NCBI RefSeq assembly: GCF_026151205.1
Contig: NC_087084.1
Coordinates: 11,869,453-11,933,452 of the forward strand
DNA length: 64,000 nt
Source: Bolinopsis microptera
Lineage: Eukaryota > Ctenophora > Tentaculata > Lobata > Bolinopsidae
Reading direction: 5' to 3'
The translations under genes and the position numbers were made by a program. Positions 8,601-37,155 of the stretch are shown piece after piece. The stretch's first letter is position 1. Every line of letters begins with the position of its first letter. The notes beneath the pieces are model-generated. The model saw only the letters and a list, made by a program, of their open reading frames with translations. It ran no database searches and was not told the origin of the DNA.

Positions 8601-9636
8601 ATCACTTTACCAGCCTACGAGTGTCCGGCAGCCAAAAAGAAGTGTGCGGACGGTATGCAATGTGTTCCTAAGAAACTCTTCTGTGATGGTAAAGCAGATT
8701 GCACCGACGGGTCAGATGAGTCTGAGGAAGAATGCGCAGGTTCGTTGAATAATTATTGAAATTTGAAATATTTGAAGTATGGAAATATTAAGATTTTATT
8801 TACAAATTGCAACAATGAGAAAAAACGAGTTTAAGTTAGTTTATCTGATTTTAATTGCATTTTTAATCCAGAGGAAAAAGGAGAAGGAAAATCAATTATC
8901 GAAGTCCGAAAAGGAAAAGGAAAACAAACGATTGGTAAGTAGCACATTAATCATGAGCATATTAAGTTCAAGTCAGAGTGTATTACGACTATTAAGAACA
9001 TTTAACATTGTAAATAAGGTAGTATTTTTTACCCAGTATTTTATTTTTATCAACCACTAATTTCACTATGGCCTTCTTGTAAATACATTAATGAACTCCA
9101 ACGTTGTTTTAACTTTTGAACAACATTTCCCTTCATTCTCTTTGACAGATATAGGAACTTAATACTTAATTAAAGAAAAGTTAAGATAATATCAATTTTT
9201 AGAAAAGGGTGAAAGAATTATAGAAGTGCCGGATGAAACAAGCCGAAGGGGGCCACCAGAGCCAGAAGACCCAGAGCCAGTAGACCCAGAGCCAGTAGAC
9301 CCAGAGCCAGTAGACCCAGAGCCAGTAGACCCTGAGCCAGTAGACCCTGAGCCAGTAGACTGCCCTGCTGAATGTACTCCAAGAGAGTGCCCCGGTATCA
9401 ACCCTCACAACCCATCCTGCTGGGAGGCACTAGAGGAAACCAGGTTCAGGGGTTCTGTTAGTATCGGTAACATTAAGGGAGGCATAAACGTAGCCAAGGC
9501 AGCATGTTACGCCAGCGGCACATGCGAAGCTATTACTTGTTCTCAAAGAAGAGGTGTAGTTTCATGTGAGCTGTTGCTTACTAAAGGTATAGAAAAGATG
9601 GGCAAAGATATGATATCATTTGTTTACGCTTGTTAA
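5634..9636 (+). CDS. Secreted multi-LDLa-repeat protein with GCC2/GCC3-like domain, 12 exons, 527 aa
   Basis: Exons read from splice signals: 5634-5700, 5970-6119, 6314-6388, 6588-6602 (15-nt microexon), 6810-6836, 7142-7267, 7506-7748, 7971-8105, 8397-8519, 8614-8739, 8872-8934 and 9203-9636. They sum to 1,584 nt and give one open frame of 527 codons plus TAA. Every intron is phase 1, typical of shuffled extracellular modules. Residues 1-22 form a signal peptide (hydrophobic core [14 protein letters not shown]). Residues 24-70 are a Cys-rich GCC2/GCC3 or ephrin-receptor-like module (CPAGSF, CKKC, CTPCPKG). Six LDLa repeats lie at about 114-360, one per exon except exon 7, which has two. The last ones carry the calcium-binding DGSDE pattern. 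Residues 402-436 are seven [10 protein letters not shown] repeats, then a unique Cys-rich tail to 527. No membrane span is seen, so secretion is inferred. Partner and function are unknown. The exon 8 acceptor (TAG at 7968-7970) was chosen by frame. Confidence 0.88.
9256..9360 (+). repeat. 15-bp coding minisatellite (PEPVD)n
   Basis: Seven in-frame 15-bp units encode PEPED then six PEPVD, inside the last exon of the LDLa gene. The third-base variants (CCA/CCT) group at the 3' end, which suggests stepwise expansion. The acidic, proline-rich stretch likely forms an extended linker. Confidence 0.95.
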
Positions 9637-10002: not shown

Positions 10003-13000
10003 TTAACTGTGCTTCTTTTTCATGAGGTGAGCTAAAGGAGAAATTGAACATATTGGCACTATAGTTACTACCCCGTCGCTAGATTTCACTTGAACAGAGG
10101 GTGAAGATGATGAGAAACACCAGGATAACTGTGATGTCTGAGTACTCCAGCGCGTTACTCACAAACAGTACCTGGTATTGTTCTCTGTCAGTTCAGAAAG
10201 TAAGTTTGGTAGCATAAGTTAAACAACACTTACAAGTAAGTTTAGTAGCATAAGTTAAACAACACTTACAAGTAAGTTTAGTAGCATAAGTTAAACAACA
10301 CTTACAAGTAAGTTTGGTAGCATAAGTTAAACAGCACTTACAAGTAAGTTTGGTAGCATAAGTTAAACAGCACTTACAAGTAAGTTTAGTAGCATAAGTT
10401 AAACAGCACTTACAAGTAAGTTTAGTAGCATAAGTTAAACAACACTTACAAGTAAGTTTGGTAGCATAAGTTAAACAGCACTTACAAGTAAGTTTGGTAG
10501 CATAAGTTAAACAGCACTTACAAGTAAGTTTAGTAGCATAAGTTAAACAACACTTACAAGTAAGTTTAGTAGCATAAGTTAAACAGCACTTACAAGTAAG
10601 TTTAGTAGCATAAGTTAAACAGCACTTACAAGTAAGTTTAGTAGCATAAGTTAAACAACACTTACGAGTAAGTTTGGTAGCATAAGTTAAACAGCACTTA
10701 CAAGTAAGTTTGGTAGCATAAGTTAAACAACACTTACAAGTAAGTTTAGTAGCATAAGTTAAACAGCACTTACAAGTAAGTTTAGTAGCATAAGTTAAAC
10801 AACACTTACAAGTAAGTTTAGTAGTGTGGTTGGAAGGAAGATAACAATGGCGACCAAATACCACGAAGCCCAATAAGACAATCTTTTTAGCCCGTTCATT
10901 GTCAAAAACTCCTGAAATCAATATCAGCTGTTGACTGAAAAACTGTCGTTGAATTAAGTGGATTTTTCTTCTTTGGTCGCAAGCGAACCATTGTGAAATG
11001 ACACACAGAATCTTAATGTCAGACTCAAAATATGAATAAGGATTAAAAATGTCTACTACTGTTATAGACGATACATTTATCAGTGTTTAATGTCCTTACT
11101 ATTCAGTCGTAGTTCGTTCCGAAAGTATTATTCCACATTAATTACACTACGCTTACCTTGATACCTAGAGTCCTTTGCTCGGTTATCTCTCTCACTAGGT
11201 CGGCAGCCAACAGCCCGTATGATATCAGCAGCAGGAGCAGAGGCAGTACTATAGGGATCATCGCTAGATACAGATCCTTAGTGTACCTTGGAGGAGGGAA
11301 TACGTTTAAAAGGGATTTGTTCAAAAGTGTTTCATTCTACATTCTACACGAGTATGAAGGGTACCTGCTGTTACCACTGATCTGGGAATCGCTACCAGGT
11401 CATATTTACATTATCCGCTCGCTACTTGGAGAGGATGCTATCTCAAGACAGGTGATCCGTAACGATCAGGTGATGTGTAACCACTAACCAGTGCGACTGA
11501 ACGCTCAGCTCACCTACTACATCAGATCACATCCTGAGCTTGACAAGTAGCTCACATCATCTAGTAAATCTAGCATGACCAGATCTGTACATACCCACAA
11601 CTGGCATTAACAAGCTCGTTATCTTCCCATATGTATAAATAACCAACCACAATGCATTAGTCATCAATCGTTTCAACTTCAGTTTACAGTTCACACCTTG
11701 ACACGAACATGAATTCCGTTTACAGAAAACCTGGCTACTCCGTTACCACCGACAAGTCTTCCCTCCTTCACCCTCCCCCATCCCATCACTACGAGACTCG
11801 AATGATCCACGCTAACATCTTCTCGGTTGGGGCAAGCCATCCTGATCCTGACGAACCTTTCTTCACTCACCTTACCCTTTCTCCAGACTCCAGTTACAGG
11901 ACTCCACCGAGACCTTCACAACCGGAGATGATATACTATGATGTCACTCCTGTCAAGTCTATATTGGACATTTTTTCCACTCCTCACGATGAGATTATGA
12001 TGGATCCTGAAGACGAAACAGATCCTGAAGACGAATCAGACCATGAAGACGAATCAGACCATGAAGACGAATCAGACCATGAAGACGAATCAGACCCTGA
12101 AGACCCTGAAGGCGAATCAGACCTTGAAAACGAATCAGACCCTGAAGACGAATCAGACCCTGAAATCTCCTTCACCATCATGAAGAGTGCATTCAATGGA
12201 ACACCCCGGAGACCCTGCCCTATACCAGTCACCCTCGACATCGAGATGAAGGAACTGACTCTAACTGATCCTACTTCTCCTCCACAACCAACCACACCTC
12301 CACCTCGTCTTTCTGGACCCCACCTTCAACCCAACGGATCTGAACCTAAAACCCCTACCACTCCTACCATACCACATAAACTCTCTGGTCCCCATCGACC
12401 TAAACCATCATCCCCCTCGGACCAGGTCTTCACCTCACCGACCTCCCCCTCTCTCCTGGCCTTTTCTTCTCTATCACTGCAGTCACCTACTCGACCCAGA
12501 AGATCAGAGCGGATTAGACGGAGAACACGGGGGATTTCTTCAGAGCAGGAGGAGGAGCTAAATCAATACTTCCTGAGGAGCAAACACTGTGGATCTGGGT
12601 CCCGGAGACAGGTTGCCAAGATGGTTGGGATCAAGGAGTCTACTGTGTTCCAGTGGTTCGTCACCAAGAAGAAAGCTTGAATATTTTTGTATTTTGTATG
12701 TTTTTATATGGGATTGATTATTAATTTAATAACTTAAATAGTTTACTGTTACTTTGTTCAAAAACTGATGTAAGCGATCAAACAAATTATCATAGTAAAC
12801 TTACGGAGCATGAGGAAATTTCTGCATCGTGACATCTTCTGAGAAGGAACGTCCTGATACCCGGGAGTCAACAGCCGTCTGCAGAGCAAGGAAGCCACTC
12901 CGAAAATAAAACGGTAGCCCTGGTTATTTTATCGTCATTAAGGAGAAATATAATTTACTAATTATTAAGAATACAAGGAATACAAGGAATACAAGGAATA

Positions 13001-13644
13001 CAAGGAATACAAGGAATACAAGGAATACAAGGAATACAAGGAATACAAGGAATACAAGGAATACAAGGAATACAAGGAATACAAGGAATACAAGGAATAC
13101 AAGGAATACAAATTTCAAATATTAAGTTACAACAGCAACTGTCAAGATAATAATAATAATAAAATAACTATTATTATGAAGTAGCATATCTGAGAAAATG
13201 TGTTTATAAATTATTAATTACCATCGAATGAGCTGTTAGACCGAGGAGCTGGAGAGGCTATCATGTGGAAGATTCTATCCGTGTACCACAAACTCAGCCA
13301 ACTCTTTATTCTTATGCTGTAACTGAAACACAAATACTTCTTGTTCGTTTGTTCTCTAAGCCACAAAGAATGAAAAGTTCTTAATACACAGTGCTTTCCT
13401 TTTAAGTCTATCTAAGAAATTTACAATTCAATGATGTAATAATAATGTCATTAACATCAATGAACTGTAACGAAACCTATCAATTTGTTAATATAATTCA
13501 TTAAAACAAGTTTTCGAGCTCTGAACGAGTCCCACTCCTAACTCCAAATGCCTCAATGTCAAATTTTCAATGTCACCGCGTATTTATGCCTAAGTTCTCA
13601 TTCTCAAAAAGCAATGTTTCTGGGTCACCTTTGTTGGTGGAGTT
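10003..13644 (-). CDS. ABCA-type transporter membrane-domain fragment, no nucleotide-binding domain (5' incomplete)
   Basis: Seven minus-strand exons join in frame: 13577-13644, 13222-13322, 12805-12919, 11157-11286, 10810-10911, 10090-10171 and 10003-10031. Together they make 627 nt, or 208 codons plus TAA. Splice phases 2, 1, 2, 0, 0, 1 all match. Family signatures of ABCA exporters appear in order: YSIRI, then PRSN and [10 protein letters not shown] in the first extracellular domain, a [14 protein letters not shown] membrane segment, LVREITEQ, and [19 protein letters not shown] at the TM2-TM3 turn, then two more membrane segments. The chain stops after FTLCS with THLMKKKHS. The last TM helices, Walker A, signature and Walker B are all absent. 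The N-terminal exon with TM1 was not found; a retroelement lies about 1 kb upstream. It could be a truncated gene, or a pseudogene whose splice sites are still intact. The end KKHS fits a KKXX ER-retrieval signal, but that is inference. Confidence 0.75.
10198..10825. repeat. 36-bp tandem array carrying 17 copies of a 5' splice site
   Basis: There are about 17 units of 36 bp, each with CTTACAAGTAAGTTT(A/G)GTAGCA. On the minus strand each reads GCTACTAAACTTACTTGTAAGTG. The last unit runs into the 3' end of the ABCA-like exon at 10810, so every unit repeats the exon/intron junction ACTT|GTAAGT. Since 36 is a multiple of three, a spurious 242-codon ORF runs through the array. The array fills nearly the whole intron between 10171 and 10810. 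Confidence 0.93.
11634..11640 (+). promoter_or_regulatory. TATA box of the homeodomain-like gene
   Basis: TATAAAT lies 69-75 bp upstream of the ATG at 11709. A start about 30 bp downstream (TCATCA near 11661) would give a short 5' UTR of about 45 nt. Confidence 0.6.
11709..12680 (+). CDS. Intronless protein with acidic repeats and a divergent C-terminal homeodomain, 323 aa
   Basis: One uninterrupted ORF begins at an ATG in a fair context (ACGAACATGA) 69 bp after a TATA box. Residues about 97-155 are an acidic stretch of repeated DPEDE/DHEDE units coded by a 15-bp minisatellite. Residues 160-260 are Pro/Ser/Thr-rich and disordered. Residues 270-323 align without gaps to homeodomain positions 2-55: helix 1 has [10 protein letters not shown], the helix 2 turn has [10 protein letters not shown], and helix 3 has [13 protein letters not shown]. 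The core W48 and F49 are kept, but the near-invariant N51 is T, R53 is K, and the protein ends right after helix 3. A DNA-binding transcription regulator is possible but unproven. The gene lies inside an ABCA-like intron on the opposite strand. The lack of introns suggests a retrogene. The class (TALE, PRD etc.) cannot be assigned. Confidence 0.75.
   Translation: MNSVYRKPGYSVTTDKSSLLHPPPSHHYETRMIHANIFSVGASHPDPDEPFFTHLTLSPDSSYRTPPRPSQPEMIYYDVTPVKSILDIFSTPHDEIMMDPEDETDPEDESDHEDESDHEDESDHEDESDPEDPEGESDLENESDPEDESDPEISFTIMKSAFNGTPRRPCPIPVTLDIEMKELTLTDPTSPPQPTTPPPRLSGPHLQPNGSEPKTPTTPTIPHKLSGPHRPKPSSPSDQVFTSPTSPSLLAFSSLSLQSPTRPRRSERIRRRTRGISSEQEEELNQYFLRSKHCGSGSRRQVAKMVGIKESTVFQWFVTKKKA
11997..12165 (+). 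repeat. 15-bp coding minisatellite, acidic (D-P/H-EDE)n
   Basis: About ten imperfect 15-bp units of the GACGAATCAGACCATGAA type encode acidic pentads in the homeodomain-like protein. The CAT/CCT variation gives the H/P alternation. Confidence 0.9.
12969..13112. repeat. 9-bp minisatellite AATACAAGG, ~16 copies
   Basis: A homogeneous array of AATACAAGG inside an ABCA-like intron. It ends in the sequence AATACAAATTTC. The minus strand is free of stops, which explains a (FLV)n ORF that is not a gene. Confidence 0.95.
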
Positions 13645-14058
13645 CTACAGGGTGAAATATTAGAGCTGCTAGAGTGTGACTGTACAGAGTGTGATTATTC
13701 TTCAGTACACTCTCTATCGCCAAAATCAACTCCCAACCACAACCCACATCTATAACTTTCTATGATGTTGATAACTTGAGATGCAGGGAGAATGAGGGGT
13801 TGAGAAGAGGAGCGAAGGTTAAAGAAAAAGAGAGGATTATATTGAGAGGGATGTCGAGTTTCAGTTAGAGGATTAAAAGGGTTGACAGAGAGGGAGACGT
13901 AACGCAGTTTTGCTAGTACCTCAGTTGAGTTTTTCAAAATTGTCCCACATTCAAACGAATGCACAGCGGGGCCCTTCGTTGCGCCACTGGTTGAGAGGGA
14001 GACTTAAAAGTAGGAGGAGGGGTTGAGAAGTGTATATGAACAACTTTTGAAACCATCT
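13645..14058. other. Region upstream of the ABCA-like exons, no exon found
   Basis: The expected N-terminal and TM1 exon of an ABCA protein is not recognisable here. A minus-strand ORF (13695-13964) has no domain similarity that I can see. Confidence 0.4.
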
Positions 14059-23793: not shown

Positions 23794-26700
23794 TAATCAT
23801 TACAATCATTACAATCATTACAATCATTATAATCATTACAATAATTACAATCAGTACAATCATTACAATCATTACAATCATTACAATAATTACAATCATT
23901 ACAATCAGTATAATCAGTACAATCAGTACAATCATTACAATCAGTACAATCATTACAATAATTACAATCAGTACAATCAGTATAATCATTACAATCATTA
24001 CAATCATTACAATCATTACAATCATTACAATCATTACAATCATTACAATCAGTACAATCATTACAATTATTACAATCAGTATAATCATTACAATCATTAC
24101 AATCATTACAATCAGTACAATCATTACAATCAGTTCAATCATTACAATCATTACAATCATTACAATCAGTACAATCATTACAATCAGTATAATCATTACA
24201 ATCATTACAATCAGTACAATCATTACAATCATTACAATCATTACAATCATTACAATCAGTATAATCAGTACAATCATTACAATCAGTATAATCATTACAA
24301 TCATTACAATCATTACAATCAGTTCAATCATTACAATCATTACAATCATTACAATCATTACAATCATTACAATCATTACAATCAGTACAATCATTACAAT
24401 TATTACAATCAGTATAATCATTACAATCATTACAATCATTACAATAATTACAATAATTACAATCATTACAATAATTACAATAATTACAATCATTACAATC
24501 ATTACAATCATTACAATCATTACAATCAGTACAATCATTACAATCATTACAATCATTACAATCAGTACAATCATTACAATCAGTATAATCATTACAATCA
24601 TTACAATCAGTACAATCATTACAATCATTACAATCATTACAATCATTACAATCAGTATAATCAGTACAATCATTACAATCAGTATAATCATTACAATCAT
24701 TACAATCATTACAATCATTACAATCATTACAATCATTACAATCAGTATAATCAGTACAATCATTACAATCATTACAATCAGTACAATCAGTACAATCAGT
24801 ACAATCATTACAATCATTACAATCATTACAATCAGTACAATCATTACAATCAGTACAATCATTACAATCATTACAATCAGTACAATCATTACAATCAGTA
24901 CAATCATTACAATCAGTACAATCATTACAATCAGTACAATCATTACAATCAGTACAATCATTACAATCATTACAATCAGTACAATCATTACAATCAGTAC
25001 AATCAGTACAATCATTACAATCATTACAATCAGTACAATCATTACAATCAGTACAATCATTACAATCATTACAATCAGTACAATCATTACAATCATTACA
25101 ATCATTACAATCAGTACAATCATTACAATCATTACAATCAGTACAATCATTACAATCAGTACAATCAGTACAATCATTACAATCATTACAATCATTACAA
25201 TCAGTACAATCATTACAATTATTACAATCAGTTCAATCATCACAATCATTACAATCATTACAATCATTACAATCATTACAATCATTACAATCATTACAAT
25301 CATTACAATCAGTACAATCATTACAATTATTACAATCAGTATAATCATTACAATCATTACAATCATTACAATCAGTACAATCATTACAATCAGTTCAATC
25401 ATTACAATCATTACAATCATTACAATCAGTACAATCATTACAATCAGTATAATCATTACAATCATTACAATCAGTACAATCATTACAATCATTACAATCA
25501 TTACAATCATTACAATCAGTATAATCAGTACAATCATTACAATCAGTATAATCATTACAATCATTACAATCATTACAATCAGTTCAATCATTACAATCAT
25601 TACAATCATTACAATCATTACAATCATTACAATCATTACAATCAGTACAATCATTACAATTATTACAATCAGTATAATCATTACAATCATTACAATCATT
25701 ACAATAATTACAATAATTACAATCATTACAATAATTACAATAATTACAATCATTACAATCATTACAATCATTACAATCATTACAATCAGTACAATCATTA
25801 CAATCATTACAATCATTACAATCAGTACAATCATTACAATCAGTATAATCATTACAATCATTACAATCAGTACAATCATTACAATCATTACAATCATTAC
25901 AATCATTACAATCAGTATAATCAGTACAATCATTACAATCAGTATAATCATTACAATCATTACAATCATTACAATCATTACAATCATTACAATCATTACA
26001 ATCAGTATAATCAGTACAATCATTACAATCATTACAATCAGTACAATCAGTACAATCAGTACAATCATTACAATCATTACAATCATTACAATCAGTACAA
26101 TCATTACAATCAGTACAATCATTACAATCATTACAATCAGTACAATCATTACAATCAGTACAATCATTACAATCAGTACAATCATTACAATCAGTACAAT
26201 CATTACAATCAGTACAATCATTACAATCATTACAATCAGTACAATCATTACAATCAGTACAATCAGTACAATCATTACAATCATTACAATCAGTACAATC
26301 ATTACAATCAGTACAATCATTACAATCATTACAATCAGTACAATCATTACAATCATTACAATCATTACAATCAGTACAATCATTACAATCATTACAATCA
26401 TTACAATCATTACAATCAGTACAATCAGTACAATCATTACAATCATTACAATCATTACAATCATTACAATCATTACAATCAGTACAATCATTACAATCAG
26501 TACAATCATTACAATCATTACAATCATTACAATCAGTACAATCATTACAATCATTACAATCATTACAATCATTACAATCAGTACAATCATTACAATCAGT
26601 ACAATCATTACAATCAGTACAATCATTACAATCAGTACAATCATTACAATCATTACAATCATTACAATCATTACAATCAGTACAATCATTACAATCAGTA

Positions 26701-28200
26701 CAATCATTACAATCAGTACAATCATTACAATCAGTACAATCATTACAATCAGTACAATCATTACAATCATTACAATCAGTACAATCATTACAATCAGTAC
26801 AATCAGTACAATCATTACAATCATTACAATCAGTACAATCATTACAATCAGTACAATCATTACAATCATTACAATCAGTACAATCATTACAATCATTACA
26901 ATCAGTACAATCATTACAATCAGTACAATCATTACAATCATTACAATCAGTACAATCATTACAATCATTACAATCATTACAATCAGTACAATCATTACAA
27001 TCATTACAATCAGTACAATCATTACAATCAGTACAATCAGTACAATCATTACAATCATTACAATCATTACAATCAGTACAATCATTACAATCATTACAAT
27101 CATTACAATCATTACAATCAGTATAATCAGTATAATCATTACAATCATTACAATCATTACAATCAGTACAATCAGTACAATCATTACAATCAGTACAATC
27201 AGTACAATCAGTACAATCATTACAATCATTACAATCATTACAATCAGTACAATCATTACAATCAGTACAATCATTACAATCATTACAATCAGTACAATCA
27301 TTACAATCAGTACAATCATTACAATCAGTACAATCATTACAATCAGTACAATCATTACAATCAGTACAATCATTACAATCATTACAATCAGTACAATCAT
27401 TACAATCAGTACAATCAGTACAATCATTACAATCATTACAATCAGTACAATCATTACAATCAGTACAATCATTACAATCATTACAATCAGTACAATCATT
27501 ACAATCATTACAATCATTACAATCAGTACAATCATTACAATCATTACAATCAGTACAATCATTACAATCAGTACAATCAGTACAATCATTACAATCATTA
27601 CAATCATTACAATCAGTACAATCATTACAATCAGTACAATCATTACAATCAGTACAATCATTACAATCATTACAATCATTACAATCAGTACAATCATTAC
27701 AATCATTACAATCATTACAATCATTACAATCAGTACAATCATTACAATCAGTACAATCATTACAATCAGTACAATCATTACAATCAGTACAATCATTACA
27801 ATCATTACAATCATTACAATCATTACAATCAGTACAATCATTACAATCATTACAATCAGTACAATCATTACAATCAGTACAATCATTACAATCAGTACAA
27901 TCATTACAATCATTACAATCATTACAATCAGTACAATCATTACAATCATTACAATCATTACAATCATTACAATCATTACGAGCATTACAATCATTACAAT
28001 CATTACAATCAGTACAATCATTACAATCATTACAATCATTACAATCATTACAATCATTACAATCATTACAATCATTACAATCATTACAATCATTACAATC
28101 AGTACAATCATTACAATCAGTACAATCATTACAATCAATACAATCATTACAATCAGTACAATCAGTACAATCAGTGTCAGTACAATCATTACAATCAATA
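23794..28200. repeat. 4.4-kb satellite of a 9-bp unit (ACAATCATT/ACAATCAGT)
   Basis: About 490 tandem copies of a nonamer occur in two main forms, ACAATCATT and ACAATCAGT, with rarer T(A/T)AATCAGT, ACAATAATT, ACAATTATT and AGTTCAATC variants. Because the unit is a multiple of three and carries no stop in several frames, both strands have ORFs of up to about 1,500 codons. These are artefacts. The order of variants is itself repeated: 23984-25140 equals 25244-26400 base for base by eye (offset 1,260 bp, or 140 units), and about 26880-27090 equals 27420-27630 (offset 540 bp). Confidence 0.97.
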
Positions 28201-28572
28201 CTTAAGGTATGTCTCAAAGTTGGCCAAAAACGTTAACACTTTATAATACTGGTTATAATTAATATTCTTGAGATAAGTGAAAACTATCCTAAGATGCAAG
28301 AAAGATGAATTATGATATCATGGATTAGATAAGATCTACTGCGAGATCCAATAGTAGTTCTCATAATATTGTGGCCTCTGTATCTCTATAGCTCTATATT
28401 ATCATCCATTACAACTCATTAGGACGTGTGTTACCTGATCAATGGTACATATAAAGATATACTGGATTAAAAGACTAATTTAACAGTAAGAACTAAAGTC
28501 CAATAAATATGAGGGGAGAATTGTTTGTTTCTCCTTTCAGCAAAGTGCTCAACTAATGAATAGGAGCTTTTT
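28201..28572. other. Intergenic, no gene seen
   Basis: AT-rich unique sequence between the satellite and an inverted-repeat element. Confidence 0.4.
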
Positions 28573-31230: not shown

Positions 31231-34200
31231 GGCAAGTTTCCATAAACGATATTTTATGATCGTCGCCGATAATCGCTTATTGAGCGCTTTTTCGGCGGTT
31301 TTTTTTAAAAAAACCGTTTACAATCGCTTTTTTTACGATTATAAACGGTTCAAAAAAAATCGCTTATAATCGATTATAATTGGTGTCATAATTCAAAAAA
31401 GCGCTTTTTTTAATTTAAAAGCGCTTATAAGCGCTTTTAAGCGCTTACTAGCGTCGCTGAGCGATTTGAAAGCGGTTTTCCAGTAGGATTGGCGCCAAAA
31501 ACGGGTGCATAAGCGGTTGGCCGGATAAGCGATTCGTAGGCACTTTTTTGAACCATTTATAAGCGATTATAAGCGCTTATAAGTGGGGTGCAATTTAGCT
31601 GTTTGTAAAGCGCAAACAAAGCGCTTATAAGCGCTTTTAAAATTGAGTCAGGAAAACGCTATATTACATCTTATAACCGCTTATAATCGATTATAATCGC
31701 TTTTTTAGAAATCGCTTATAACGGCTAATTCATCACTAATTTACCGCTTTTACCGCTTTTCCTATCATCCATGGCCAGGTGAGCAGGAATTAAAAAGCGC
31801 TTATAAGCGCTTTTTCGATGCTGCCCCTAACCTGGTCGGAACGGGGTAGTGCCCGGAATTTAAAAGCGCTTATAAGCGCTTTTTCAATGCTGCCCCTTAC
31901 CTGGTCGGAACGGGGGAGTGCCCGGAATTAAAAAACGCTTATAAGCGATTTCTCAATTCCCCTTAACCTGGTCGGAGCTGGAGAATGCCTGGAATTAATA
32001 AGCGCTTATGAGCGATTTCTTAATTCCCCTTAACCTGGTCGGAACTGGAAATCAGAGTGCCCGCTTATGAGTGCTTTTCTGTGCAACCTGGGGTGCACCG
32101 GCAGAGTCAGGATTTAAAAGCGCTTATAGGCGCTTATGATCGCTTTTCTGCCGCTTTTCCCATCACCCATGGCCTGGTTGGCAAGAATTATAAAGCGCTT
32201 ATAAGCGCTTTTTCAATGCTGCCCCTAACCTGGTCGGAACGGGGGAGTGCCTGGAATTAATAAGCGCTTATAAGCGATTTCTGAATTCCCCTTAACCTGG
32301 TCGGAACTGGAAATCAGAGTGCCCGCTTATAAGTGCTTTTCTGTGCAACCTGGGGTGCACCGGCAGAGTCAGGATTTAAAAGCGCTTATAGGCGCTTATG
32401 ATTGCTTTTCTACCGCTTTCCTATCGCCCATGGCCTGGTTGGCAGAAATTAGAAAGCGCCTATAAGCGCTTTTTCAATGTTGCCACTAACCTGGTCGGAA
32501 CGGGGTAGTGCCCGGAATTAAAAAGCGCTTATAAGCACTTTTTCAATGCTGCCCCTAACCTGGTCGGAACGGGGGAGTGCCCGGAATTAAAAAGCGCTTA
32601 TAAGCGATTTCTCAATTCCCCTCAACCTGGTCGGAACTGGAGAGTGCCCACTCGTATGTGCTTTTCTGAGCAACCTGGGGTGCACCGGCAGAGTCAGGAT
32701 TTAAAAGCGCTTATAGGCGCTTATGATCTACCGCTTTTCCCATCACCCATGGGCTGGTTGGCAGGAATTAGAAAGCGCTTATAAGCGCTTTTTCAATGCT
32801 GCCAGTGCCCCTAACCTGGTCGGAACGGGGGAGTACCCGAAATTAGAAAGCGCTTACAAGGGAGAGTGCCAGGAATTAGAAAGCGCTTATAAGCTTAACG
32901 GGCGATACTCGTAAAATATTTGTTTCAAATATTACGTTGAGTCCAACTCGGCGTGCGTCCTGGTAACTGTAAGTTATAAACTTACAATTATAAGCACAAA
33001 TCTGAACATCCGTTCACCTGGAGTGCACGGAATTTAAATGCGCTTATAAGCGCTTTTCTCGATGCCCCTAAACCTGTCATGCACTGGCGGGAGTCAGGAT
33101 TTGAAAAGCGGTTATAAGCGATTACAATCACTTTTTATTACTGGTTTTTACCGCTTTATCTATCATTTATCAACATGGATTTAAACATAGTTGTTTGACT
33201 GGCGATCTAGAAGCCAAGCAAAAAGGCTAAGTGCACGGCGCGGCAAAGTTCTCCGACAATAATTGTCAGAAATTGTAAAGCGCTTGTAAGCGTTTATTTA
33301 TATGTTGTTAATGGTGGCGGTTGTCCTGGTACGGTGGCGGTCGATGCCCGCTGCGTCATCAGTCATACACACTTCACATTCAGAACTTGCAAAAGAAAAG
33401 TATAGTATATGAAATAATTAAATTATTGCGCTGGGCCACGCTCAGTCTGTCAACGAGTATGACAGGCCTGTTCATGTTATTCCAAGGAATCTCTAGTCGG
33501 GCTGAGCGAATCACGACGTCTGAAAAAAGTGCGGTGCTCATTGAAAGTTAGTGTGTGCGTGACCAGCATTTATGATTTAAGTACTTGTTCATAATCAATC
33601 GCAAATCGTGGACATAAAAAACACGTGCACGCTGATTGACCATTGTTAATGGTCTGGCCCGGCGCGCGCTACTTCGTAGCACTTGCCATCGGGCAAATGA
33701 TATTTCGAGAAGAAAGCGGCGCGCGCTACTTCGAAGAAATTTAGAGGAGTAACATCCGTCAAGCACGCTGAGTACCAATAGGAAAAAAAGTAATGTATAC
33801 GCTAGAAAAGCCGCGCGCGTGCTGAGATAGCTTGTAAAATCTGGTTATTAGATACAGTGGGGTGACATATGTTTTCGTCACTTCTGATAATGACAATACA
33901 AACAGCGTTAAACTAACAATTTTCATTAAACCATAACTCCGCTTCCGGACCACCGATTTACAAAATTCAAAAATGGGTGTTTAGAGAAAATTCTGAACTT
34001 TCTCGGACAGTAGAAATTAAGTTCATTCGTGCTTCAGAAGAGACTGGCAGGCCCATAAATAAAAGGTTTGATCACGATAATGATACTATTTATGAAGGAG
34101 CACATGTTTTAATATTGACGGATGTTACTCGTCTAAATTTCTTCGAAGTAGCGCGCGCCGGGTCAGACCATTATATATTATTAACAATGGTCAAGTTTTA

Positions 34201-37155
34201 ATACTAATAGCAAGCGACGAACTTTTTTCTACTTCAATATTACCATGAAGTTTAAAACGGAATATCTTTGTACTGCATCGTTCGATTTCGATAAAATTGA
34301 TGAGGTAACAAGCGCTTCTACTAAATCGCTCGCCCAAATTTTAAGAAAATTCTTGTGAAAAGGCCCTATGGGTATGAAAGTAATCTGAATCGGTGTATTT
34401 TTGGACGCTGATTCCGAATCACCCCTCATGACGTAGGGTAAAAATGCTTCCCTGCAGAGTTATGAGCAAAAAACCGTTTTGGTCACGTGACATGGTAATA
34501 AAACATGAATTCGATTGTTTAGGGCTCGGGTTAGGGTTAGGGTTGTGGTTAGGGTTATTGATAGCTTCGGGGTTATGGTTGACATACGTTGAATGCCACT
34601 TTTCGCGCGCGAAGCGCGCGCCGCCGAAGGCGGAAAAATATATCACATAATATCTCTGATATTTGTGATACGTAACATGTATCAAGGTTATGGTTAGGGT
34701 TAGGGTTGGGATTAGGCCTAGGGTTTATGTAAAACCGTTTTGTACGGCTGCAAAACCATAAAAACCAAAGTCACGTAAAATTTTCGGGCGAGCGAATTAG
34801 TAAGAGCCGGTAACAAGACCAAATGTTTCTCAGTTGATTAAAATAAATACTGTTAGAGTTGTAAATCTTTAGTCAGAGATAGCATAAGTTTACCATGCTA
34901 AGTTGGATATTGTGAACACTTCCCTATTCCTCAATTTTTAGTGGTGTCATAGATATTACATCGCAACAAAATTTACTACAGATACGCCAAAGGGTCTGGG
35001 CCTTGTACTAGACAAATTCTCCAGACTCGTGATTACACTCACTGCTAACAATATCACGTGACGTGCACGCAAACTTGAAACTCGCGCGCTAAAATGCGCG
35101 CATTCAGAAGTGACGAAAACATATGTTACCCCACTGTAGTAAAACTGCAACAAATAAACCGCGCCAGCTTGCGCGTTTGAGTCGCTCCTACGAAATCGCT
35201 CGCCCAAATTTTAAGAAAATTCTTGTGAAAAGGCCTTTGGGTATGATATTGATCTGAATCGGTGTATTTTTGGACGCTGATCCCGAATCACCCGCCATGA
35301 AGTAGGGTAAAAATACTTCCCTGGAGAGTTACATGGGCAAAAACCGTTTTACTTTTAGTCACGTGCTGCCGTTGCTCTATCCAGATAGGTAGTCCGCCAT
35401 CGACAGTGAGCCGCGCGTGCCGACTGTATAGTAGTATGGTTTTTAGCGCTAATTTCGGCCAGCACAATTTTCTTCAAACAAAAATATATTGAGTATCCTT
35501 CCCGACCTCCGATTGCAACAAAAATTGGTGAGCTTACTCATAGACTTACAAGGAAAGTGTCCAAAATAATACGACAAAAATCAACGAATTTGGTCAAATT
35601 ACGCGACTTTTACCAGGTTAAGGGGCATTGAAAAAGCGCTTATAAGCGCTCTTTAATTCCGGGCACTCCCCCGTTCCGACCAGGTTAGGGCCTAGGGGCA
35701 GCATTGAAAAAGTGCTTATAAGCGCTTTCTAATTCCTGCCAACCAGGCCATGGGCGATAGGAAAAGCGGTAGAAAAGCGATCATAAGCGCCTATAAGCGC
35801 TTTTAAATCCTGACTCTGCCGGTGCACCCCAGGTTGCACAGAAAAGCACTTATAAGCGGGCACTCTGATTTCCAGTTCCGACCAGGTTGAGGGGAATTGA
35901 GAAATCGCTTATAAGCGCTTTTTAATTCCGGGCACTCCCCCGTTACGACCAGGTTAGGGGCAGCATTGAAAAAGCGCTTATAAGCGCTTTCTAATTCTTG
36001 CCAACCAGGCCATGGGTGATAGGAAAAGCGGTAGAAAAGCGATCATAAGCGCTTTTAAATCCTGACTCTGCCGGTGCACCCCAGGTTGCACAGAAAAGCA
36101 CTTATAATCGGGCACTCTGATTTCCAGTTCCGACCAGGTTAAGTGTTAAGGGTAATTAAGAAATCGCTTATAAGCGCTTTTTAATTCCGGGCACTCCCCC
36201 GTTCCGACCGGGTTAGGTGCAGCATTGAAAAAGTGCTTATAAGCGCTTTCTAATTCCTGCCAACCAGGCCATGGGTGATAGGAAAAGCGGTAGAAAAGCG
36301 ATCATAAGCGCCTATAAGCGCTTTTAAATCCTGACTCTGCCGGTGCACCCCAGGCCCAGGTTGCACAGAAAAGCACTTATAAGCGGGCACTCTGATTTCC
36401 AGTTCCGACCAGGTAAAGCCAAAGGGGAATTGAGAAATCGCTTATAAGCGCTTTTTAATTCCGGGCACTCCCCCGTTCCGACCAGGTAAGGGGCAGCATT
36501 GAAAAAGCGCTTATAAGCGCTTTTAAATTCCGGGCACTACCCCGTTCCGACCAGGTTAGGGGCAGCATCGAAAAAGCGCTTATAAGCGCTTTTTAATTCC
36601 TGCTCACCTGGCCATGGATGATAGGAAAAGCGGTAAAAGCGGTAAATTAGCGATGAATTAGCCGTTATAAGCGATTTCTAAAAAAGCGATTATAATCGAT
36701 TATAAGCGGTTATAAGATGTAATATAGCGTTTTCCTGACTCAATTTTAAAAGCGCTTATAAGCGCTTTGTTTGCGCTTTACAAACAGCTAAATTGCACCC
36801 CACTTATAAGCGCTTATAATCGCTTATAAATGGTTCAAAAAAGCGCCTACGAATCGCTTATCCGGCCAACCGCTTATGCACCCGTTTTTGGCGCTAATCC
36901 TACTGGAAAACCGCTTTCAAATCGCTCAGCGACGCTAGTAAGCGCTTAAAAGCGCTTATAAGCGCTTTTAAATTCAAAAAAGCGCTTTTTTGAATTATGA
37001 CACCAATTATAATCGATTATAAGCGATTTTTTTTGAACCGTTTATAATCGTAAAAAAAGCGATTGTAAACGGTTTTTTTTTAAAAAAGCGCCGAAAAAGC
37101 GCTCAATAAGCGATTATCGGCGACGATCATAAAATATCGTTTATGGAAACTTGCC
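31231..37155. mobile_element. 5.9-kb foldback transposable element with long subrepeated inverted arms
   Basis: An 8-bp target duplication GAAATAGC flanks the element (31223-31230 and 37156-37163). The ends are GGCAAGTTTCCATAAACG and its reverse complement. The left arm (31231 to about 33150) and right arm (about 35620-37155) are inverted copies. Both are built of a ~65-70-bp subrepeat with the palindrome AAGCGCTTATAAGCGCTT and a block CCTAACCTGGTCGGAACGG. The arms differ in subrepeat number. The ~2.4-kb middle is unique, has no ORF longer than 90 codons, and no transposase was recognised. The structure is that of a foldback element moved in trans. Confidence 0.88.
33640..35370. repeat. Internal repeats of the foldback element core
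   Basis: A GC-rich block GGCGCGCGCTACTTCG occurs twice near 33655-33735 and inverted near 34143-34165 next to a shared ACCATTGTTAATGGTC-like flank. A stretch containing CATATGTTTTCGTCACTTCTG at about 33868 is inverted at about 35108. A ~170-bp segment (34323-34491) is directly repeated at 35192-35368. TTAGGG-like runs lie at 34518-34557 and 34685-34726. Confidence 0.8.

Follow-up and report, generated by a model that had tools for sequence, protein, structure and literature searches.

A tandem array of 5′ splice sites in an ABCA intron of the ctenophore Bolinopsis microptera, and arrays of similar layout in other genes

In a 64,000-nt stretch of the Bolinopsis microptera genome (NC_087084.1, positions 11,869,453 to 11,933,452 of the forward strand; hereafter the window), a minus-strand intron of an ABCA gene fragment is composed almost entirely of 36-bp repeats of its own exon/donor junction. 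Our analysis indicates that this array is very probably a minisatellite seeded by tandem duplication across the 5′ splice junction. The duplicated segment would have comprised 15–16 nt from the end of the exon together with the first 20–21 nt of a short intron, and slippage or unequal exchange would then have amplified it into the intron. The array probably arose on C9, where the ABCA gene is intact, or else in the ancestor of that gene, and reached the window by partial segmental duplication. Because every new copy carries its own donor, the exon stays intact and the added copies remain intronic, provided that splicing proceeds from the exon-proximal donor. With the mRNA then unchanged, the mutation would be mostly silent and the array could lengthen or shorten freely; it would be silent only if the first donor wins. 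The main interest of the array lies in its belonging to what appears to be a recurrent class of donor-seeded arrays within one genome.

The array, its exon and the parent gene

The intron at 10172–10809 (minus strand) has a length of 638 bp and consists of a 612-bp array followed by a 26-bp unrepeated tail that ends in AG. Tandem Repeats Finder placed the array at 10198–10824 with a period of 36, 17.4 copies and 96% matches. When the minus strand was cut at the donor, 17 head-to-tail units of exactly 36 bp each were obtained, running from 10809 down to 10198. An earlier note, made from the letters of the window, had described 17 tandem donors in 36-bp units, each with a copy of the exon end and the outermost abutting the exon at 10810, and this description held throughout. 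GTAAGT opens 17 of 17 units, the first of them at the exon edge (10804–10809), and all donors of the window array are intact; the junction ACTT/GTAAGTG occurs in 16 of the 17, the remaining unit being preceded by ACTC. Within a unit, the sequence runs from GTAAGTG to the exon-end copy CTAC[T/C]AAACTTACTT (ACTC at the end of one unit), and three positions vary across the 16 units compared. The final 15 bases of the exon (CTACTAAACTTACTT, 10810–10824, coding for LLNLL) match the unit end exactly and in register with the array, and the match can be extended to 18 bases at the cost of two mismatches. Judged by this register and by protein homology, these bases are the presumed source of the exon part of the unit. 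With 17 copies at 96% identity, chance is excluded as the source of the array. The unrepeated 3′ end of the intron (10172–10197) contains CTGAC at 10187–10191, which is branch-like by the consensus that we take for branch points, and the acceptor AATACCAG. The earlier note had also suggested that the expansion began at the exon/intron junction and spread into the intron. This is the most likely course, as the array contains the exon end and the same layout was found in other genes, and a junction origin is well supported.

The exon that adjoins the array is one of three minus-strand ABCA membrane exons in the window. Exon A (11157–11297) was assigned by a tblastn coding match, is one residue longer than its C9 counterpart and has a 5′ boundary that is not fixed. 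Exon B (10810–10911), preceded by the acceptor ATTTCAG, is identical to the C9 exon in 34 of 34 residues (tblastn), and exon C (10092–10171; blastn, tblastn and pairwise alignment) is truncated where the identity to C9 ends, at approximately 10092. The three exons, when joined by eye at the first donor, match PF12698 (5.5e-8). They belong to a 3.6-kb segmental duplicate (10092–13721) of C9:14691226–14695892 in the opposite orientation, as determined by blastn and pairwise alignments. When 13 exon pieces of the C9 gene were compared by tblastn with the window plus the adjoining 9.5 kb below, exons A, B and C matched with E < 1e-10, and the other ten gave E values of 0.11 or weaker, or nothing; N-terminal and nucleotide-binding exons were not found in this range. 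The window copy lacks the combination of membrane and nucleotide-binding domains that is taken here to mark a functional ABCA gene; it is a relic, a fragment left by partial segmental duplication. Outside the arrays, the window and C9 differ by 1.3%, 2.3%, 4.1% and 7.5% over 469, 791, 685 and 106 aligned bases, respectively, and the difference is 24% in a fifth stretch, which extends upstream beyond the duplicate.

A query of three units gave 24 matches in two places only, the window and C9:14694125–14695763, with a search that passes over very common words. On C9, exons are present for the N-terminus and the membrane part as well as for the first nucleotide-binding domain. Joined by eye, with exon borders partly checked, they match PF12698 (2.8e-16) and PF00005 (2.3e-24) and are predicted to encode both the membrane and the nucleotide-binding domains of a functional ABCA protein. 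The C9 counterparts of exons A, B and C, once joined, match ABCA3, ABCA1, ABCA7 or ABCA4 chains in the PDB (13 distinct sequences with E values up to 0.01). The C9 intron has a length of 1672 bp and contains 45 full units (42 of 36 bp and three of 37 bp) plus one partial unit, and 42 of its 46 donors are intact. The unit number thus differs between the paralogs (17 in the window versus 45 full units on C9) with flanks only 1.3–7.5% apart, a change in copy number as known from minisatellites and variable number tandem repeats (VNTRs). Blocks of C9 units recur in identical order, a sign of higher-order duplication. The partial last copy on C9 continues directly into GATTCCTGAACTGACAG...TTAG; since it joins the unique 3′ end in this way, the same intron without repeats would have measured approximately 49 nt in the ancestor. 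CTGAC is kept in both introns, its A lying 16 nt before the intron end, and each copy shows a single intron, whose one evident acceptor lies at the distal end of the array.

A protein search for other ABCA genes gave, beyond the window and C9, weak matches only (E 0.0015 and above). A family search identified one further ABCA locus on C5 (PF12698, 5.1e-9), in which the exon is followed by a single ordinary donor without an array. This locus was considered as an array-free outgroup and rejected as a poor one, as by eye it looks like the second membrane half and has its intron at a different place.

The ABCA duplicate also carries a homeodomain open frame (11661–12680, plus strand; family match and blastn), which lies between ABCA exons on the strand opposite to them. 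It contains an 18-bp coding minisatellite with 9.2 units in the window and 15.3 in the C9 copy.

Donor arrays elsewhere in the genome

The whole genome was searched for three consecutive copies of AGGTAAGT with gaps of 12–42, and the reversed motif served as the control. The motif gave 598 + 782 matches (1380) versus 12 + 0 for its reversed form, and triplets of CAGGTAAGT gave 153 + 293 (446) versus 0 + 0. These matches overlap, long arrays count repeatedly, and the totals are not locus numbers. Among the matches listed, seven loci (six unit families) were found on C1 and the start of C2, and nine loci on C4–C10. The exon side was fetched for 15 array families besides ABCA, all of them found by the donor motif among the matches listed; in the other arrays that were read, the units are unrelated to the ABCA unit.

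Eight of the 15 families adjoin what reads as a coding exon, with an acceptor or open frame followed by a donor. They are located at C1:36576 (unit of 32 bp), C1:4181600 (44 bp), C1:14124772 (44 bp, ADAM-like exon), C4:1262426 (20 bp, first donor CCAA/GTAAGT), C4:3730100 (41 bp), C5:13821520 (29 bp, WD40-like exon), C10:1535228 (32 bp) and C10:4506848 (35 bp, homeobox exon). In all but the first, the searched motif is itself the anchored donor. The share of the unit derived from the exon reaches nearly the whole unit at C5:13821520 and C1:36576; it was compared by eye, not by script, for C10:4506848, C10:1535228 and C4:3730100. The ADAM-like exons match Reprolysin (Pfam, 1.3e-14) and PDB sequences including ADAM22 and related metalloproteinases, and the homeobox exon gave a Pfam match of 2.7e-13. 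The two Pfam matches of the WD40 exon are weak and fall short of the curated cut-offs (1e-4 and 0.0056).

The next exon was read in two of the eight families, and in both the splice through the first donor continues a conserved domain. In the homeobox gene the join ...LNLAQIQVQ/VWFQNRRAK... restores the full 57-position Homeodomain (4.4e-23), and in the ADAM-like gene the join ...GEECDCGTEE/ECIASDPCC... gives Disintegrin (4.9e-7, 30.9 bits versus a curated cut-off of 35.1). One added unit, of 35 bp in the homeobox gene or 44 bp in the ADAM-like gene, would break the reading frame. All eight unit lengths (20, 29, 32, 32, 35, 41, 44 and 44) leave a remainder of 2 on division by 3. The ABCA unit, unlike these eight, is a multiple of 3 but contains a stop. 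Among six other families with a clear period, four leave a remainder of 1, one of 2 and one of 0, a pattern seen post hoc.

The remaining families are less clear. Near the arrays at C1:3114108 and C2:2666901, coding sequence seems by eye to lie on the other strand; no exon was readable beside those at C2:3987015, C6:20294637 and C8:17904441, and the anchor of the array at C8:7268823 was unclear on inspection. The 37-bp unit of the latter (C8:7268823–7269127; GTAAGT...TTATTTCAG) looks as if a whole tiny intron had been repeated in head-to-tail order. At C10:17037541 the array filled both fetched pieces and was counted as neither anchored nor unanchored. The unit at C1:761375, read on the intron side, equals that at C1:36576, and the two were counted as one family; this 32-bp array occurs twice on C1 (36576–37703 and 761375–762150), and both copies end in CAG/GTAATT, probably the original donor. 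In a 30-bp array at C4:15156036 with the ACTT/GTAAGTG motif, no exon was read ahead of the array.

The recurrence of this layout might also be expected without any preference for donors, if minisatellites are so dense that some must span splice junctions. This is a claim about frequency that is compatible with a junction-seeded ABCA array, and we regard it as possible but rather unlikely. It draws on 188 array rows with a period of at least 8 in 194 kb, a count that includes overlapping rows and comes in part from loci picked for their arrays, and neutral placement of many arrays would hit some junctions. The counts of donor-motif triplets relative to the reversed motifs (1380 versus 12 and 446 versus 0, overlapping matches) argue against it. 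So do 560 letter permutations of the motif, counted in 113 kb of local sequence, which predict ~4 loci per motif genome-wide, a rough figure resting on the single motif-locus that they yielded, versus seven loci in the first ~30 Mb listed.

Choice among near-identical donors

In the C9 gene, exons B and C joined through the first donor align to ABCA1 without a gap at the junction. The exon-proximal donor thus gives the conserved protein, and from the match of the joined exons to ABCA proteins across the junction we infer that it is the donor used in the intact gene. Reading past this donor into the first unit adds VSVV and then a stop, as the earlier note had foreseen for the ABCA frame. An in-frame TAA is present in all 16 window units counted (the 17th was not counted) and follows the donor in 43 of 45 C9 units. 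Another frame runs open across the entire window array, but a donor shift of 36 bp, a multiple of 3, leaves the frame unchanged.

Two further ideas about the donors were considered and rejected. A difference in donor strength is hardly seen, as the first-type and inner-type ABCA donors are calculated to bind U1 nearly alike (−7.3 versus −6.5 kcal/mol, with what we take to be the 5′ end of U1). Selection against inner donors is not apparent either: with 17 of 17 intact in the window and 42 of 46 on C9, they give no clear sign of decay. As the first and inner donors are hardly distinguishable by sequence and folding is unremarkable, the likely cue is where a donor lies with respect to the exon (exon definition).

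How the choice between comparable neighbouring donors is made is described as not known in the excerpted text of PMC6002489. Runs of near-identical donors, such as the 46 in the C9 gene with 42 intact, offer natural experiments on how a 5′ splice site is chosen, as local sequence explains the choice poorly where donors are nearly the same. The unrelated genes with the same layout, with units of 20–44 bp, serve as replicates. The persistence of such arrays may follow from each copy having its own donor, by which the mRNA can stay unchanged.

An alternative to a silent array is a regulatory one, in which the unit number or the choice of donor tunes the ratio of full to truncated ABCA product. 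The in-frame TAA in nearly all units would suit this role, and the length of a VNTR in human ABCA7 correlates with altered splicing according to the excerpted text of PMC5954066. We nevertheless consider it improbable. The window copy is without N-terminal or nucleotide-binding exon, so that neither a full nor a truncated product can be made there, and the switch between the two that the earlier note had proposed found no support in these three exons; the C9 parent could in principle switch. Anchored arrays also occur in unrelated genes, where none of the eight unit lengths is divisible by 3, as would be expected if arrays grow silently within introns.

It is still less probable that inner donors are hidden by RNA structure through pairing of GUAAGU with ACUUAC within or between units. 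GTAAGT and its complement ACTTAC both recur along the array, but the fold z-score is only −1.36, two of 20 shuffles folded equally well, and the first donor is capable of the same pairing. Mobile elements that carry splice sites (introner-like elements) exist and the units carry GT donors, but insertion of such an element at the junction is almost certainly not the origin of the array: in a search that passes over very common words, the unit was found in two paralogous copies of one intron only (24 matches) and not as dispersed similar copies in many introns, its exon part is the coding sequence of that very exon, and the units of other arrays are unrelated to it.

Several points weigh against a junction-seeded array whose first donor is used. 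The genome is very rich in minisatellites, so that density alone might account for many arrays across junctions, and the excess of donor arrays has a weak point, its permuted-motif control being confined to 113 kb of local sequence. Six of the 15 families whose exon sides were inspected have no demonstrated exon anchor. In five of the eight anchored families the exon gave no Pfam match with an E value of 0.1 or lower and was called by eye from acceptor, open frame and donor; for two of these five exons no informative PDB match was obtained (best E 0.71 and 0.15). The array at C1:36576 has the donor GTACTT and carries the searched motif on the opposite strand, and at C4:1262426 the overlap between exon and unit, the smallest share found, is just four bases, one of them mismatched. 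Small gaps near the junction of exons B and C were seen versus ABCA3, so that, of the two alignments inspected, the clean test comes from ABCA1. Donor use is deduced from protein conservation, and the direction of change, exon first and array later, would follow from that conservation and from the other genes. Finally, the intron-proximal of two comparable donors is reported to be favoured, for a reason given as not known in the excerpted text of PMC6002489. On balance, we consider it about as likely as not that introns of this genome have grown repeatedly by tandem duplication across their exon/donor junctions, buffered by the spliceosome, and that unrelated genes tolerate such runs of donors because the exon-proximal one nearly always wins, contrary to the reported preference.

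Other window features and comparison with known systems

Further repeats were observed in the window. An open frame at 9190–9636 (plus strand) contains seven in-frame 15-bp repeats (PEPVD) and lies downstream of cysteine-rich frames at ~7–8.1 kb, which we take to be LDL-receptor-A-like. The array at 23795–28201 spans 4.4 kb, has 9-bp units (AATCATTAC and variants thereof) and is open in several frames. Two arrays of similar 69-bp/260-bp units, at 31786–32649 and 35617–36600, are seemingly inverted relative to each other, and short TTAGGG repeats are found between them at 34519–34557.

With head-to-tail units in the range of ~10–100 bp and high identity, the ABCA array has the properties of a minisatellite. 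It resembles hypervariable minisatellites in unit length, high identity, the recurring unit blocks on C9 and the change in copy number between paralogs. It differs from them in being anchored on a splice junction, with the exon part of the first copy under coding constraint.

Tandem duplication across an exon/intron boundary is a known route of intron gain, as described in the excerpted text of PMC4974935. As in that route, a boundary was probably duplicated in the ABCA gene and splice signals were carried along. Unlike such a gain, in which a new intron forms between the duplicated AG and GT, an existing intron was lengthened here, with many donors and no evident new acceptor; each copy has a single intron.

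The human ABCA7 intron-18 VNTR is a close precedent and, as far as the excerpted text of PMC5954066 goes, the same kind of object. It surfaced in our searches of open-licence literature, which returned no report of donor-seeded minisatellites as a genome-wide class, weak evidence of absence. According to the same excerpt, the VNTR starts at the exon-18 donor GT and has a 25-bp unit with 23.7 units in the reference; a donor one unit inward is used in a minor, frame-breaking isoform (De Roeck et al. 2018, PMC5954066), exon-19 skipping rises with length, and the VNTR is reported as a risk factor for Alzheimer's disease. Like it, the ctenophore array is intronic, starts at the donor GT of the exon, repeats this GT in its units, comprises tens of units and lies in an ABCA gene, albeit in another intron. 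Unlike the ABCA7 unit as described there, the ctenophore ABCA unit also includes 15–16 nt of the exon.
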